Source: Bradyrhizobium quebecense (GTDB lineage Bacteria > Pseudomonadota > Alphaproteobacteria > Rhizobiales > Xanthobacteraceae). From it: a stretch of DNA of 64,000 nucleotides. Every line of letters begins with the position of its first letter. Position 1 is the first letter of the stretch. Position numbers and translations under genes: made by a program. The notes below the pieces were generated by a model, which had not been told where the DNA came from, did no database searches, and saw only the letters and a program-made list of their open reading frames with translations. The stretch is taken from contig NZ_CP088022.1 in NCBI RefSeq assembly GCF_013373795.3, positions 6,510,001-6,574,000 of the forward strand. Direction: 5' to 3'. This document shows, in pieces, positions 4,999 to 34,833 of this stretch.

Positions 4999-5121
4999 TC
5001 GTCGTCCCTGCGAAAGCAGGGACCCACAACCACAGGGCGTCATTGTTGATCCCGATATCGACCCCGACCGCCCAGATCGAAGGGCCGCGGCGTATGGGTC
5101 CCCGCTTTCGCGGGGACGACG
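4999..5121. repeat. REP-like hairpin pair between prfA and prmC
   Basis: Two oppositely oriented hairpins, GTCCCTGC-GAAA-GCAGGGAC (5004-5023) and GTCCCCGC-TTTC-GCGGGGAC (5099-5118), are flanked by the recurring words CCCACAACCAC and GGCGTATGGG. This is the repeat family targeted by the two IS elements at 26.4 and 33.5 kb. The stems of the two units differ in a compensated way (CTGC/GCAG against CCGC/GCGG), so pairing rather than sequence is conserved. Confidence 0.85.
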
Positions 5122-26385: not shown

Positions 26386-26524
26386 CACCGTTGCAGGTTT
26401 GGCGAAGGTTGGGCCCACAGCGCGCTTCGACAATTCGCGCTGGTGGTTGATGGTGTGGACGGCCCCCTACGGCATCAGTGTGCCAGAATGAGGTTGTTGT
26501 AAATCTCAGACAAGGAGACCGTCC

Positions 26525-27553
26525 GTGAGAGAGATTATCCGTATTGGGATGGATACGTCGAAGCATATTTTTGTGCTGCATGGAGTTGACGCGGCGGAAC
26601 AGCCGGTGTTGCGCAAGAAGCTGTCGCGCAAGCAGGTGCTTGAGTTTTTTGCCAAGCTTCCGCCGACCGTGATCGGGATGGAGGCCTGCGGGGCGGCTCA
26701 TTACTGGGGGCGCGAGCTTGGCAAGCTTGGCCATGAGGTGAAGCTGATAGCGCCGCAGTTGGTGAAGCCTTATGTGCTGCGGAACAAGAACGACGGGCGA
26801 GATGCGGATGGGGTGTGCGAAGCGATGGGCCGACCGCGGATGCGGTTTGTGCCGGTGAAGAGCGCCGAACAGCAGGCCGCGCTGATGCTTGCAGGTGTCC
26901 GCGATGGGCTGATCGGCCGCCGTACCCAGCTCAGCAATGCGATCCGCGGCTACGCGGCGGAGTTTGGCCTGATCGCGCCGAAGGGGTTGGACAAGATCGA
27001 GCCGCTGTTGGCCCGGATCACGCAGGACGAGAGCGTTCCCGCTATGGCGCGCGAGCTGTTCGCCATGCAGGGCCGTGACTATGCGCAGTTGCAGGGTGAG
27101 CTGAAGGCGGTCGAGGCCAGGCTGCTGGCCTGGCACCAGGCCAACGCCACAAGCCGTCGTCTGGCCCAGATCCCCTCGGTCGGTCCGATCATCGCGACCT
27201 CGCTTGTGATGAAGACGCCGGACCCGCACGCCTTCCGCTCCGGCCGCTTGTTCGCGGCCTGGCTCGGCCTGACGCCCAAGGACCATTCCACCGCCGGCAA
27301 AACCAGGCTCGGCAAGATCACCCGCGCTGGCGACGAGACCCTGCGTCGCCTGCTCGTGGCCGGGGCGACCGCGGTGATCCGGCAGGCAAGGCTCGGGCGC
27401 GGCCACCCCTCGCGCTGGCTCGTGGCGTTGCTCAGGCGCAAGCCGCCGAAGCTTGCGGCCGTGGCGCTCGCCAACAAGGTGGCCCGCATCGCCTGGAAGC
27501 TGATGGCGACCGGCGAGAGCTATGATGCCGCACGCATGAACGCTGTCACCTAA
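26525..27553 (+). CDS. IS110-family DEDD transposase, copy 1
   Basis: A 342-aa recombinase. The N-terminal RuvC-like DEDD domain has Asp in IRIGMDTSKH, Glu in VIGMEACGAAHYW and the Asp pair in RNKNDGRDADGVCEA. The C-terminal transposase-20 domain has the helix-hairpin-like IPSVGPIIATSLV, then FAAWLGLTPKDHSTAGKTRLG with the presumed nucleophilic Ser, and GDETLRRLLV. The start is GTG at 26525, 9 bp after AAGGAG. The protein is identical to copy 2. IS110 recombinases act with an element-encoded bridge RNA (seekRNA) that specifies target and donor DNA. Confidence 0.95.
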   Translation: MREIIRIGMDTSKHIFVLHGVDAAEQPVLRKKLSRKQVLEFFAKLPPTVIGMEACGAAHYWGRELGKLGHEVKLIAPQLVKPYVLRNKNDGRDADGVCEAMGRPRMRFVPVKSAEQQAALMLAGVRDGLIGRRTQLSNAIRGYAAEFGLIAPKGLDKIEPLLARITQDESVPAMARELFAMQGRDYAQLQGELKAVEARLLAWHQANATSRRLAQIPSVGPIIATSLVMKTPDPHAFRSGRLFAAWLGLTPKDHSTAGKTRLGKITRAGDETLRRLLVAGATAVIRQARLGRGHPSRWLVALLRRKPPKLAAVALANKVARIAWKLMATGESYDAARMNAVT

Positions 27554-27798
27554 CAGGTCGGCCGGCCGGACGTAGCGCTCGCCGGACGAACCGGAGCTGC
27601 AAGAGCAGATGGAATGATCGATCGATCCAGAACGCGAGACAAGCCGCGGGACCCATTGGCCTTCACAAGGTCGCCAGGTTGTTTGGCACTCGCGTCGCGG
27701 AAACCATCTTGGCCCAGCGATCAACACGATCGCATCAAACAGGCCGGACATATGGATGACAGCGATCCGACCAATCCCAGAAAGCTCTTGTGCCACGA
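27554..27798 (+). ncRNA. Candidate bridge RNA/seekRNA region of IS copy 1
   Basis: The 245 bp between the transposase stop and the right subterminal repeat contain no convincing gene; in IS1111-type elements this position encodes the guide RNA. GGGACCCAT (27648-27656) is the exact reverse complement of the right target flank ATGGGTCCC. It is followed by a small imperfect hairpin (GGCC-TTCAC-AAGGTCGCC) and then GGTTGTT (27677-27683), which matches the left target flank GGTGGTT at 6 of 7 positions. Two guides on either side of a hairpin, one for each target strand, is the expected target-binding loop. RNA ends and the donor loop are not defined. Confidence 0.6.
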
Positions 27799-27811
27799 GG
27801 GCCGTCCACAT

Positions 27812-27838
27812 ATGGGTCCCTGCTTTCGCAGGGACGAC
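27812..27838. repeat. REP-like hairpin right of IS copy 1
   Basis: ATGG followed by GTCCCTGC-TTTC-GCAGGGAC (27816-27835) is an intact REP unit directly abutting the IS. The insertion lies just outside the hairpin stem, in the GTGGTTATGG shoulder. Confidence 0.8.
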
Positions 27839-27845
27839 AGTGTCC

Positions 27846-29186
27846 CTACTCCGCCGCCGCGTTCTGCCCGGGACCGCCGACGAAGCCCGCCGGATCGCCG
27901 AACCGCTCGATCATCACGGCCGTGAGATCCTTGGTCTTGCTGGTGACACAGGCGCCGGAGCGCACCGTGTAGCGATCCTGGTGCGTCGCGTGCGGCGGCG
28001 CCTCGCCCTTTTGCAGCGCGCGGGCCGCCTCCATCACCAGCTTGCGGAAGTGCATGATGCCGAGATCGGTCGGGCCGAGATGCTCGCGGGTGCGGTCGGC
28101 GATCGGGCCCTGGCTGTCCTGCACCGCGGCGTCCTGCTCGGAGACGCCCTTGATCCCGGTGTAGCTCTTGGTCCGCTGCAGTTGGCGATCGATCAGATAG
28201 TCGTTTGCCTTGTTGCGCAGCGGCACATAGTTCTCGTCGACGACAGCCATCACGCCGTTGCCATTGGCATAGCCGTCGCGTTCGGCATCGGTCAGCGGCC
28301 GGTGCGGATTCCAGGCGTAGGTGTAGATCCAGCAATTGGTGTCGCTGACCGGCACGAAGGTCTGGCCGAACATGTTCTCGCCCGGCATCGAGCTCGGCGC
28401 ATAGCTGTGGAACGGCATCAGGAACTGGGCGATGCGCCAGTAGATGTTGTCGCTGCCGGTCAGCCGTCCGCCCGCGACCGTCAGGCCGGCCTCATGCGGA
28501 TTGATCTTGATCACCGGCCGCGGATCCTCGGCGATCCAGCGCATGTGGTCGGTCGCGACCCGCGTCAGCGGGTTGACGAAATGCTTCTTGATGTCGAGGA
28601 TCTCGTTCTCCTCCTTCTCGAAGGAGAGATGCGCGAAGGTGAAATGTGCGGTGTCGATCGAGCCTTCCACCGCCTGCACCCAGTTGCAGTCCTGCCACTT
28701 CTTGGTGACGAAGCGATGCGAGGCCGGCAGCAGCGCCATCTCCAGAGCCGGCAATTCGGGCATCACCTCGGCGGGGCCCATATAGGCCCAGATCATCTCG
28801 CCCCATTCGCGCACGGGATAGGACTTGATGCGGATCAGGTCCTTGGCGTTGAGGTCCGGATAGGAGGTCGGCATGTCGACGCAGCGGCCGTCGGTGTCGA
28901 ACTTCCAGCCGTGATAGACGCAGCGGATGCCGCATTCCTCGTTGCGGCCGAGCCAGAGATTGGCGCCGCGGTGCGGGCAATACTGATCGATGACGCCGAC
29001 CACGCCCCTCGAGTCGCGGAAGGCGAGCAGCTCCTCGCCCATGACCACGATCTTCTTCGGGTCGCCGTCCGGCTCCGGCAGCTCTTCCGACAGCAGCACC
29101 GGAATCCAGAACCGGCGCAGCAATTCGCCCATTCCCGTTCCAGCACCGGATTCGGTGAGGAATTTGTTGTCTTCGGCGCGGAGCAT
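27846..29186 (-). CDS. Rieske aromatic ring-hydroxylating oxygenase, alpha subunit
   Basis: A 446-aa oxygenase component. The Rieske [2Fe-2S] ligands are in YCPHRGANL and CVYHGWKFD (C-x-H ... C-x2-H, about residues 70-92). The mononuclear iron site is in EGSIDTAHFTFAH (E-x3-D-x2-H-x4-H), near residue 200. It resembles the phthalate 4,5-dioxygenase/vanillate demethylase group; the substrate is not assignable. No reductase, ferredoxin or beta-subunit gene is adjacent, so electron donors must be encoded elsewhere. It is the first gene inside the segment bracketed by the two IS copies and ends 8 bp after the REP unit. Confidence 0.92.
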   Translation of the reverse strand: MLRAEDNKFLTESGAGTGMGELLRRFWIPVLLSEELPEPDGDPKKIVVMGEELLAFRDSRGVVGVIDQYCPHRGANLWLGRNEECGIRCVYHGWKFDTDGRCVDMPTSYPDLNAKDLIRIKSYPVREWGEMIWAYMGPAEVMPELPALEMALLPASHRFVTKKWQDCNWVQAVEGSIDTAHFTFAHLSFEKEENEILDIKKHFVNPLTRVATDHMRWIAEDPRPVIKINPHEAGLTVAGGRLTGSDNIYWRIAQFLMPFHSYAPSSMPGENMFGQTFVPVSDTNCWIYTYAWNPHRPLTDAERDGYANGNGVMAVVDENYVPLRNKANDYLIDRQLQRTKSYTGIKGVSEQDAAVQDSQGPIADRTREHLGPTDLGIMHFRKLVMEAARALQKGEAPPHATHQDRYTVRSGACVTSKTKDLTAVMIERFGDPAGFVGGPGQNAAAE

Positions 29187-33416: not shown

Positions 33417-33542
33417 TTTGCGAAAACTGCAACCCGCATCTCGCGCCATAACCACCGCCTGTGGTTGATGGTGTGGACGGCCCCCTACGGCATCAGTGTG
33501 CCAGAATGAGGTTGTTGTAAATCTCAGACAAGGAGACCGTCC

Positions 33543-34571
33543 GTGAGAGAGATTATCCGTATTGGGATGGATACGTCGAAGCATATTTTTGTGCTGCATG
33601 GAGTTGACGCGGCGGAACAGCCGGTGTTGCGCAAGAAGCTGTCGCGCAAGCAGGTGCTTGAGTTTTTTGCCAAGCTTCCGCCGACCGTGATCGGGATGGA
33701 GGCCTGCGGGGCGGCTCATTACTGGGGGCGCGAGCTTGGCAAGCTTGGCCATGAGGTGAAGCTGATAGCGCCGCAGTTGGTGAAGCCTTATGTGCTGCGG
33801 AACAAGAACGACGGGCGAGATGCGGATGGGGTGTGCGAAGCGATGGGCCGACCGCGGATGCGGTTTGTGCCGGTGAAGAGCGCCGAACAGCAGGCCGCGC
33901 TGATGCTTGCAGGTGTCCGCGATGGGCTGATCGGCCGCCGTACCCAGCTCAGCAATGCGATCCGCGGCTACGCGGCGGAGTTTGGCCTGATCGCGCCGAA
34001 GGGGTTGGACAAGATCGAGCCGCTGTTGGCCCGGATCACGCAGGACGAGAGCGTTCCCGCTATGGCGCGCGAGCTGTTCGCCATGCAGGGCCGTGACTAT
34101 GCGCAGTTGCAGGGTGAGCTGAAGGCGGTCGAGGCCAGGCTGCTGGCCTGGCACCAGGCCAACGCCACAAGCCGTCGTCTGGCCCAGATCCCCTCGGTCG
34201 GTCCGATCATCGCGACCTCGCTTGTGATGAAGACGCCGGACCCGCACGCCTTCCGCTCCGGCCGCTTGTTCGCGGCCTGGCTCGGCCTGACGCCCAAGGA
34301 CCATTCCACCGCCGGCAAAACCAGGCTCGGCAAGATCACCCGCGCTGGCGACGAGACCCTGCGTCGCCTGCTCGTGGCCGGGGCGACCGCGGTGATCCGG
34401 CAGGCAAGGCTCGGGCGCGGCCACCCCTCGCGCTGGCTCGTGGCGTTGCTCAGGCGCAAGCCGCCGAAGCTTGCGGCCGTGGCGCTCGCCAACAAGGTGG
34501 CCCGCATCGCCTGGAAGCTGATGGCGACCGGCGAGAGCTATGATGCCGCACGCATGAACGCTGTCACCTAA
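33543..34571 (+). CDS. IS110-family DEDD transposase, copy 2
   Basis: A 342-aa protein identical in every residue to copy 1 at 26525-27553, with the same GTG start and ribosome site. The DEDD residues (GMDTSK, GMEACG, NDGRDAD) and the C-terminal DHSTAGK Ser motif are intact, so the enzyme should be active. Identity of both copies implies recent transposition or gene conversion. Confidence 0.95.
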   Translation: MREIIRIGMDTSKHIFVLHGVDAAEQPVLRKKLSRKQVLEFFAKLPPTVIGMEACGAAHYWGRELGKLGHEVKLIAPQLVKPYVLRNKNDGRDADGVCEAMGRPRMRFVPVKSAEQQAALMLAGVRDGLIGRRTQLSNAIRGYAAEFGLIAPKGLDKIEPLLARITQDESVPAMARELFAMQGRDYAQLQGELKAVEARLLAWHQANATSRRLAQIPSVGPIIATSLVMKTPDPHAFRSGRLFAAWLGLTPKDHSTAGKTRLGKITRAGDETLRRLLVAGATAVIRQARLGRGHPSRWLVALLRRKPPKLAAVALANKVARIAWKLMATGESYDAARMNAVT

Positions 34572-34816
34572 CAGGTCGGCCGGCCGGACGTAGCGCTCGC
34601 CGGACGAACCGGAGCTGCAAGAGCAGATGGAATGATCGATCGATCCAGAACGCGAGACAAGCCGCGGGACCCATTGGCCTTCACAAGGTCGCCAGGTTGT
34701 TTGGCACTCGCGTCGCGGAAACCATCTTGGCCCAGCGATCAACACGATCGCATCAAACAGGCCGGACATATGGATGACAGCGATCCGACCAATCCCAGAA
34801 AGCTCTTGTGCCACGA
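34572..34816 (+). ncRNA. Candidate bridge RNA/seekRNA region of IS copy 2
   Basis: Same 3' non-coding segment as in copy 1. The right-flank guide candidate GGGACCCAT is at 34666-34674 and the left-flank candidate GGTTGTT at 34695-34701. Against this copy's left flank (TGTGGTT) the latter matches at 5 of 7 positions; against the right flank the 9-nt match is again exact. Confidence 0.6.
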
Positions 34817-34833
34817 GGGCCGTCCACATATGG

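Follow-up and report, generated by a model that had tools for sequence, protein, structure and literature searches.

A predicted REP-addressed guide RNA with target and donor loops in an IS1111-type element of Bradyrhizobium quebecense

How does a small mobile element of a soil bacterium come to stand, again and again, at the start of the same repetitive extragenic palindrome (REP), and is its address written in the non-coding segment behind its recombinase gene? The question is raised by two copies of an element in a 64,000-nucleotide stretch of the Bradyrhizobium quebecense genome (contig NZ_CP088022.1, positions 6,510,001 to 6,574,000), called the window here. The original prediction had read the segment at 27554-27798 as an RNA with two guide strands around a hairpin. 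Based on the element ends, the insertion sites, the target, the RNA fold and guide-target co-variation, we assign a probability of about 0.9 to the reading that this is an IS1111-type element whose 3' structured guide RNA directs the recombinase to a REP.

The first copy occupies 26449-27811 on the forward strand (1363 bp) and the second 33467-34829 on the same strand, at an offset of 7,018 and with 0 differences over 1363 bp. Each carries a forward-strand gene for a 342-residue recombinase of the IS110 family (26525-27553 and 33543-34571). The protein matched PF01548 (DEDD RuvC, E 3.1e-9) and PF02371 (Transposase_20, E 5e-21), and scored 306.7 bits against a cut-off of 140 with the IS110 family model NF033542. 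Residues 189-341 matched solved proteins, IS621 (8wt6, 2.1e-8) and ISCro4 (9t56, 2.4e-10), and D10, E53, D90 and D93 are candidate catalytic residues, as suggested by the analogous IS621 residues given in PMC11208158. Within the family, the IS1111 group has been defined by a transposase of 330-350 residues with a GL-P----S(t)G motif, occasionally in a TA form (PMC11187229), and by sub-terminal inverted repeats of 7-17 bp (PMC11208160). Here residues 248-258 read GLTPKDHSTAG, the TA form, and sub-terminal inverted repeats of 12 bp were found on the forward strand at 26454-26465 (TGTGGACGGCCC) and 27799-27810 (GGGCCGTCCACA). The non-coding region downstream of the gene is the longer one, as in IS1111 elements (258 bp vs 76 bp upstream). 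Judged by these sequence features, the element belongs to the IS110 family and is of IS1111 type. Within 26400-27900, a search of Rfam up to E 1 returned 0 family matches, and no description of the element was found among the titles and abstract openings searched, a partial coverage that leaves its absence from print unproven.

The same pair of ends was found in all 29 copies of the element in its own genome, 28 of them full. The remaining copy, L071 (G000:C1:6236000-6239200), is missing part of the recombinase gene around residues 280-296 and retains the RNA segment and the REP flanks; it may be a non-autonomous copy. Relatives (E up to 1e-80) occurred in 127 of the 242 genus genomes searched, own genome counted, and a plasmid search added one relative at 77.5% identity. 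Some Bradyrhizobium genomes share both element and flanks (L044 with L077, and likewise L047 with L079). Besides, the own genome holds a second element type, 83% identical, in three copies with REP right flanks and two left-guide versions (L029, L030 and L070), as well as remoter IS1111-type relatives (44-48%) at other targets, namely L073 (on a 187-kb contig), L075 and L076; an unrestricted scan gave a guide 1 match of 9/10 in each of these three.

The joined flanks of copy 1 were matched in 81 of 235 genomes, many of the matches being to one flank only. The best 11 matches outside the own genome all spanned the junction and represent uninterrupted orthologous sites: nine read GTGGTT|ATGGGTCC, L164 reads GTGGTT|GTGGGTCC and L165 reads GTGGCT|ATGGGTCC. 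These sites fix the ends of the element and, since they span the junction, insertion appears to occur without target duplication and without base loss. The target thus consists of a left half, GTGGTT (26443-26448), and a right half, ATGGGTCCC (27812-27820), which is the start of a REP, both on the forward strand. The right half together with left GGTT was present at 29/29 copies (GGTT|ATGGGTCCC) and the full GTGGTT at 27/29. Uninterrupted GTGGTTATGGGTCCC sites in the genome numbered 44 exact and 50 with one mismatch. Right-half identity was 29/29 at occupied vs 63/94 at unoccupied sites (Fisher p 5.6e-5), and GGTT was found at 29/29 vs 82/94 (p 0.033); the search pattern behind the unoccupied set allowed one mismatch at most and so selects for close matches, which renders this test conservative. 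TATGGGTCCC occurs 127 times in the genome, occupied junctions counted. REP half-sites of this sequence also lie in the window at 5093, 14623, 54139 (reverse strand) and 54213, with no element at them.

As read from the sequence, the repeat has CGTC at its outer end. Such an end is shared with a super-family of REPs known mainly from alpha-proteobacteria, Bradyrhizobium among them (PMC3733652). In that 2013 survey, CGTC-tagged REPs are reported to lack an association with transposase genes. Br-REP1 and Br-REP2 of B. japonicum, described in PMC5082802, are known here by description only. REP sequences as targets of insertion sequences are the subject of PMC1525189, and a term search of it gave no mention of Bradyrhizobium or IS1111.

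We found that the segment behind the gene encloses a putative target-binding loop at 27632-27695 on the forward strand, closed by an outer stem ACGCGAG/CTCGCGT and by GCC (27643-27645) pairing with GGC (27685-27687), with two guides and a hairpin inside. Guide 1, GGGACCCAT at 27648-27656, is the exact reverse complement of the right flank ATGGGTCCC, as had been claimed, and therefore complements the right target's top strand; the same guide lies at 34666-34674 in copy 2, which follows from the identity of the copies over 1,363 bases at offset 7,018. Such a 9-mer match in a 245-nt segment was found at a frequency of 0.17% in composition shuffles (0.27% on either strand), so by itself it is unlikely by chance and not decisive. 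The hairpin GGCCTTCACAAGGTC (27658-27672) separates guide 1 from guide 2. For the latter, the original prediction had proposed GGTTGTT at 27677-27683; this sequence does lie across the small hairpin, and the 6/7 match proposed for it is shifted by three bases and is weak evidence alone. The paired part is rather (A)GGTT (27676-27680), because the insertion point in relatives aligns after 27680. It matches the left target, i.e. is complementary to its bottom strand, with GGTT (27677-27680) corresponding to the four bases directly left of the junction, while the next bases, GTT, face the left end of the element itself. This element has only four contiguous matching bases in guide 2, which we counted against the guide model. 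The order of the guides, with the complement of the top strand (guide 1) 5' of the complement of the bottom strand (guide 2), is that of IS1111 seekRNAs, and the 3' location, also part of the original prediction, is the same as published for them (PMC11187229).

Comparison among relatives provided the main evidence for guiding. We collected 156 loci, ten of which (L031-L040) retrieved copies of this element a second time. Of the 156, 130 had both inverted repeats (26 dropped) and L063, L126 and L148 were removed, leaving 127 loci, among which 67 guide regions are distinct. The columns of guide 1 were defined on this element and transferred to the others through the alignment; guide 2 was located from a downstream motif, with targets unused. 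Formal guide tests were restricted to elements of at least 53% identity, below which guide 1 sits one or two columns off in several, and the left-guide tests of this first set also omitted L047, L079, L054, L138, L093 and L120. Guide 1 matched its own target at 5.10 of 6 variable positions compared with 2.01 ± 0.23 after permutation (30 distinct pairs; 0/20,000), and guide 2 at 3.98 of 5 compared with 1.47 ± 0.16 (48 pairs; 0/20,000). Counted separately, 26 non-REP pairs gave 5.04 vs 1.92 for guide 1, and guide 2 gave 4.22 vs 1.61 in 27 non-REP pairs and 3.67 vs 1.88 in 21 REP-targeting pairs (0/20,000 in each case). An enlarged set with 79 more loci (one of 80, L218, was dropped, and the rows omitted there also included L211, for both guides) gave 4.97 vs 2.03 for guide 1 (36 pairs) and 3.69 vs 1.45 for guide 2 (74 pairs). 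Copies share descent, and all these permutation counts overstate independence.

Position by position over 50 element types, guide 1 matched its target at 0.90-0.96 from +2 to +9, 0.18 at +10 and 0.50 at +1, target positions +2 and +3 being nearly invariant and hence little informative. The drop from +9 to +10 gives guide 1 a sharp end. Guide 2 matched at 0.82-1.0 from -1 to -4, 0.72 at -5 and 0.62 at -6. Individual non-REP guide 1 pairs varied: 15 of the 26 matched at 6/6, four at five and four at four positions (L067, L124, L144 and L151), L064 matched at three, and L094 and L115 at one; the right flank of L115 itself holds an element-end sequence. Among relatives below 53% identity, an unrestricted scan found 8 or 9 of 10 matches in L073, L130, L133, L137, L138 and L145, and only 7 of 10 in L134, L136 and L139. 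In relatives with other targets both guides change along with them, and a segment conserved while its targets change, the outcome named as refuting in the original prediction, was not seen.

A finer test was available within the REP itself, whose position +9 varies between C and T. For this test 83 copies with right flank ATGGGTCC were used, out of 142 distinct copies after the same element with near flanks had been merged. A guide base A (two element types, 5 and 6 copies) faced T in 11/11, and a guide base G faced C in 68/72 and T in 4/72. The four exceptions would be explained by wobble pairing of G with T.

An apparent case of natural re-addressing, as judged from the sequences, was found in the second element type of the own genome. 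L029 and L030 are identical, and both differ from L070 at 4/1,374 positions, two of which are adjacent and within guide 2. The guide GGAGTT of L029 and L030 is found at targets GGAGTT and GGAGCT, and the guide GTGGTT of L070 at GTGGTT. No uninterrupted GGAGYTATGGGTCC is left in the genome, and the pre-insertion site of L030, whose right flank is repetitive, was not found. Eleven loci could be aligned to the L029 site. A GTGGTT tail was present in its closest ortholog, L249, and in L250, L254, L255 and L256; a GAGT or AAGT tail, with one T fewer than L029, was present in L251, L252, L257, L258 and L259; the place lies outside the coverage of L260. As the tails among the aligned loci are mixed, the exact pre-insertion sequence of L029 is unproven. 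L251, L252, L257 and L258 show a second REP tail type, GCGGAGT|ATGGGTCC (one G fewer in L252), at aligned positions where other loci show GTGGTT|ATGGGTCC, as if REP pairs had been swapped at a fixed locus. Whether elements of this kind speciate by small guide mutations, one half-address staying fixed on the REP head and the other drifting after REP sub-types, is a proposal for and against which we see about equal weight.

The segment is also predicted to fold as a structured RNA. Its single-sequence fold had a z of -2.12, with 1/200 shuffles folding at least as well. That fold pairs GACC of guide 1 with GGUU of guide 2, which we counted against the model; the consensus of 39 sequences keeps both guides open. 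The consensus contains 33 pairs, 16 of which show a pair-keeping change on both sides. Counted over the two main domains (29 pairs), 15 pairs vary on both sides vs 7.8 in shuffles (0/500), and 96.1% of cells are paired vs at most 35.6% with partners slid, a control that leans toward the structure, which was derived from the same sequences. The shape is that of a stem leading into an internal loop, in which the two guides flank a hairpin, followed by a second domain of like shape. Covariation therefore supports the loop-hairpin-loop architecture that had been proposed, and the predicted RNA falls within 27554-27798.

The second domain is an addition to the original prediction: it is a second loop with the segment ACATATG (27748-27754, forward strand) on its 3' strand, identical to the junction of the right end of the element (ACAT) with the flank (ATG). 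Four of the 67 rows were left out of the donor test (L129, L047, L054 and L138); with the ends as set, L138 would have one mismatch and L129 would fail to match. In the other 63 rows, 61 matched at 7/7, in 8 sequence types and with ACATATG in 50, and L134 and L136 matched at 6/7. Relatives with other right ends or following bases usually also had a different RNA, with the variants ACAC, ACAG, ATAG, ATAC, AGAC, CTG, ATA and AAG, and the 10 distinct pairs averaged 6.80 matches compared with 5.27 ± 0.26 after permutation (0/20,000). The hairpin of this loop, GCGATC-AACAC-GATCGC (27717-27733), changed on both sides at 4/5 counted pairs. A possible donor guide for the left end is ACCATC (27703-27708), the complement of GATGGT there, whose co-variation is weak (0/20,000 permutations on all rows, 10/20,000 on distinct pairs); it is nearly constant while left ends switch between GATGG and GTTGG, which counts against it. 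Similarly, GTTT (27681-27684) is a possible handshake guide facing the left end. Its first three bases, directly after guide 2, show weak co-variation with the first three of the element (0/20,000 on all rows, 84/20,000 on distinct pairs) and resemble the handshake guides of IS621 (PMC11208158). Thus, of the bridge RNA trait of a donor loop complementing both halves, the right-end segment was seen in 61/63 rows, and co-variation with the left end was weak. A sub-lineage (L067, L217, L219-L228, L231, L232 and L247) has right flanks starting with CTG in place of ATG and, in step with this, GCTGG at the left end and GCTTGG behind guide 2; the donor segment ACATCTG was seen in L067 only. Since the target loop holds both guides and ACATATG co-varies with the right end, we predict the segment to be a bridge RNA/seekRNA with target and donor loops.

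By analogy with characterised relatives, transcription of the 3' non-coding segment would yield a structured RNA bound by the DEDD recombinase. In the right target half, guide 1 would pair with the top strand; in the left half, the bottom strand would be the partner of guide 2. A segment of the second loop would pair with the right end of the element itself. The RNA would bring a circular form, with the predicted junction CCGTCCACAT|GATGGTGTGG, to a REP site, where insertion would split GTGGTT|ATGGGTCCC between T and A and leave the target unduplicated.

Other explanations need to be weighed against this. The recombinase protein could recognize the REP by itself, the complementarity being due to chance or to a REP fragment; targeting of REPs by IS110-family elements was indeed known before guide RNAs (PMC11208160, citing earlier work), and a lone 9-mer match has a probability near 0.2%. 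However, relatives with unrelated targets carry different, matching guides at the same structural position, and nearly identical elements of one genome show guide and target changing jointly. We therefore rejected chance and protein-only recognition on the basis of guide-target co-variation and consider this explanation very improbable. The structured RNA could also serve to regulate transposase expression and not be an address. This idea has a precedent in ISPpu9, a REP resident with a sense sRNA (Ssr9) downstream of tnp that has a regulatory effect and whose deletion had little impact on transposition (PMC8450116). A regulator predicts no match between loop and flanks, yet such a match was seen, and ISPpu9 is likened by description only; we give this alternative very little credence.

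The remaining alternative concerns the extent of the RNA. Only a short seekRNA with the target loop might act, the second loop being unused for donor recognition; for instance, an 82-nt seekRNA supported movement of ISEc11 (PMC11187229). The second domain is, however, structurally conserved and its 3' side tracks changes of the right end, so that we regard a short form as unlikely, though less so than the two explanations above. Taken as a prediction, an RNA-guided, REP-addressed recombinase is supported by co-variation between guides and targets, fold, location and guide order.

Two types of known systems resemble this element. In IS1111 elements the downstream region supplies a seekRNA, in which the complement of the top strand comes first, and both natural and designed re-direction have been shown (PMC11187229). 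Like ISEc11, ISPa11, ISKpn4 and ISPst6 of that study, the present element combines a downstream non-coding region, sub-terminal inverted repeats, a transposase length within the family range, the guide order and apparent natural guide re-direction. It differs from them in its alpha-proteobacterial REP target and in a donor loop backed by co-variation, and its re-addressed pair is 4/1,374 bases apart, compared with 72% transposase identity for ISEc11 and ISXne4 (PMC11187229). For IS621, bridge RNAs with a target loop and a donor loop have been shown, and bridge RNAs are predicted for 93.0% of IS1111 elements (PMC11208160). The element shares with IS621 these two loops, a DEDD recombinase with a C-terminal Tnp domain, a REP target and possible handshake bases (PMC11208160, PMC11208158). 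In contrast, IS621, of the IS110 group, has its RNA in the left end and short inverted repeats (PMC11208160), and the guide order of that group, as reported for ISEc21 (PMC11187229), is reversed relative to IS1111. ISPpu10 of Pseudomonas putida, likened by description only, is among the six elements for which a bridge RNA was predicted (PMC11208160, legend of Extended Data Fig. 10) and, according to the title of its 2006 paper, a REP occupant.

With expression, binding and movement taken from characterised relatives, the element is well supported as a predicted system that would fit both the seekRNA and the bridge RNA accounts, to which it adds a donor loop backed by co-variation, an alpha-proteobacterial REP address and an almost identical re-addressed pair. 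Genome sequence lets one read the address of an IS1111 element that is still uncharacterised, and dozens of natural insertions serve to check it. A map of guides and donor loop is also provided for what is predicted to be a compact RNA-guided recombinase. The pair of nearly identical elements whose guides differ is a natural experiment on target change in RNA-guided mobile elements; if speciation does proceed by guide mutation, this near-isogenic pair with its four differences would expose the step between addresses for direct study. If our reading is correct, CGTC-tagged REPs, reported to lack an association with transposase genes (PMC3733652), would gain a dedicated family of RNA-addressed elements.
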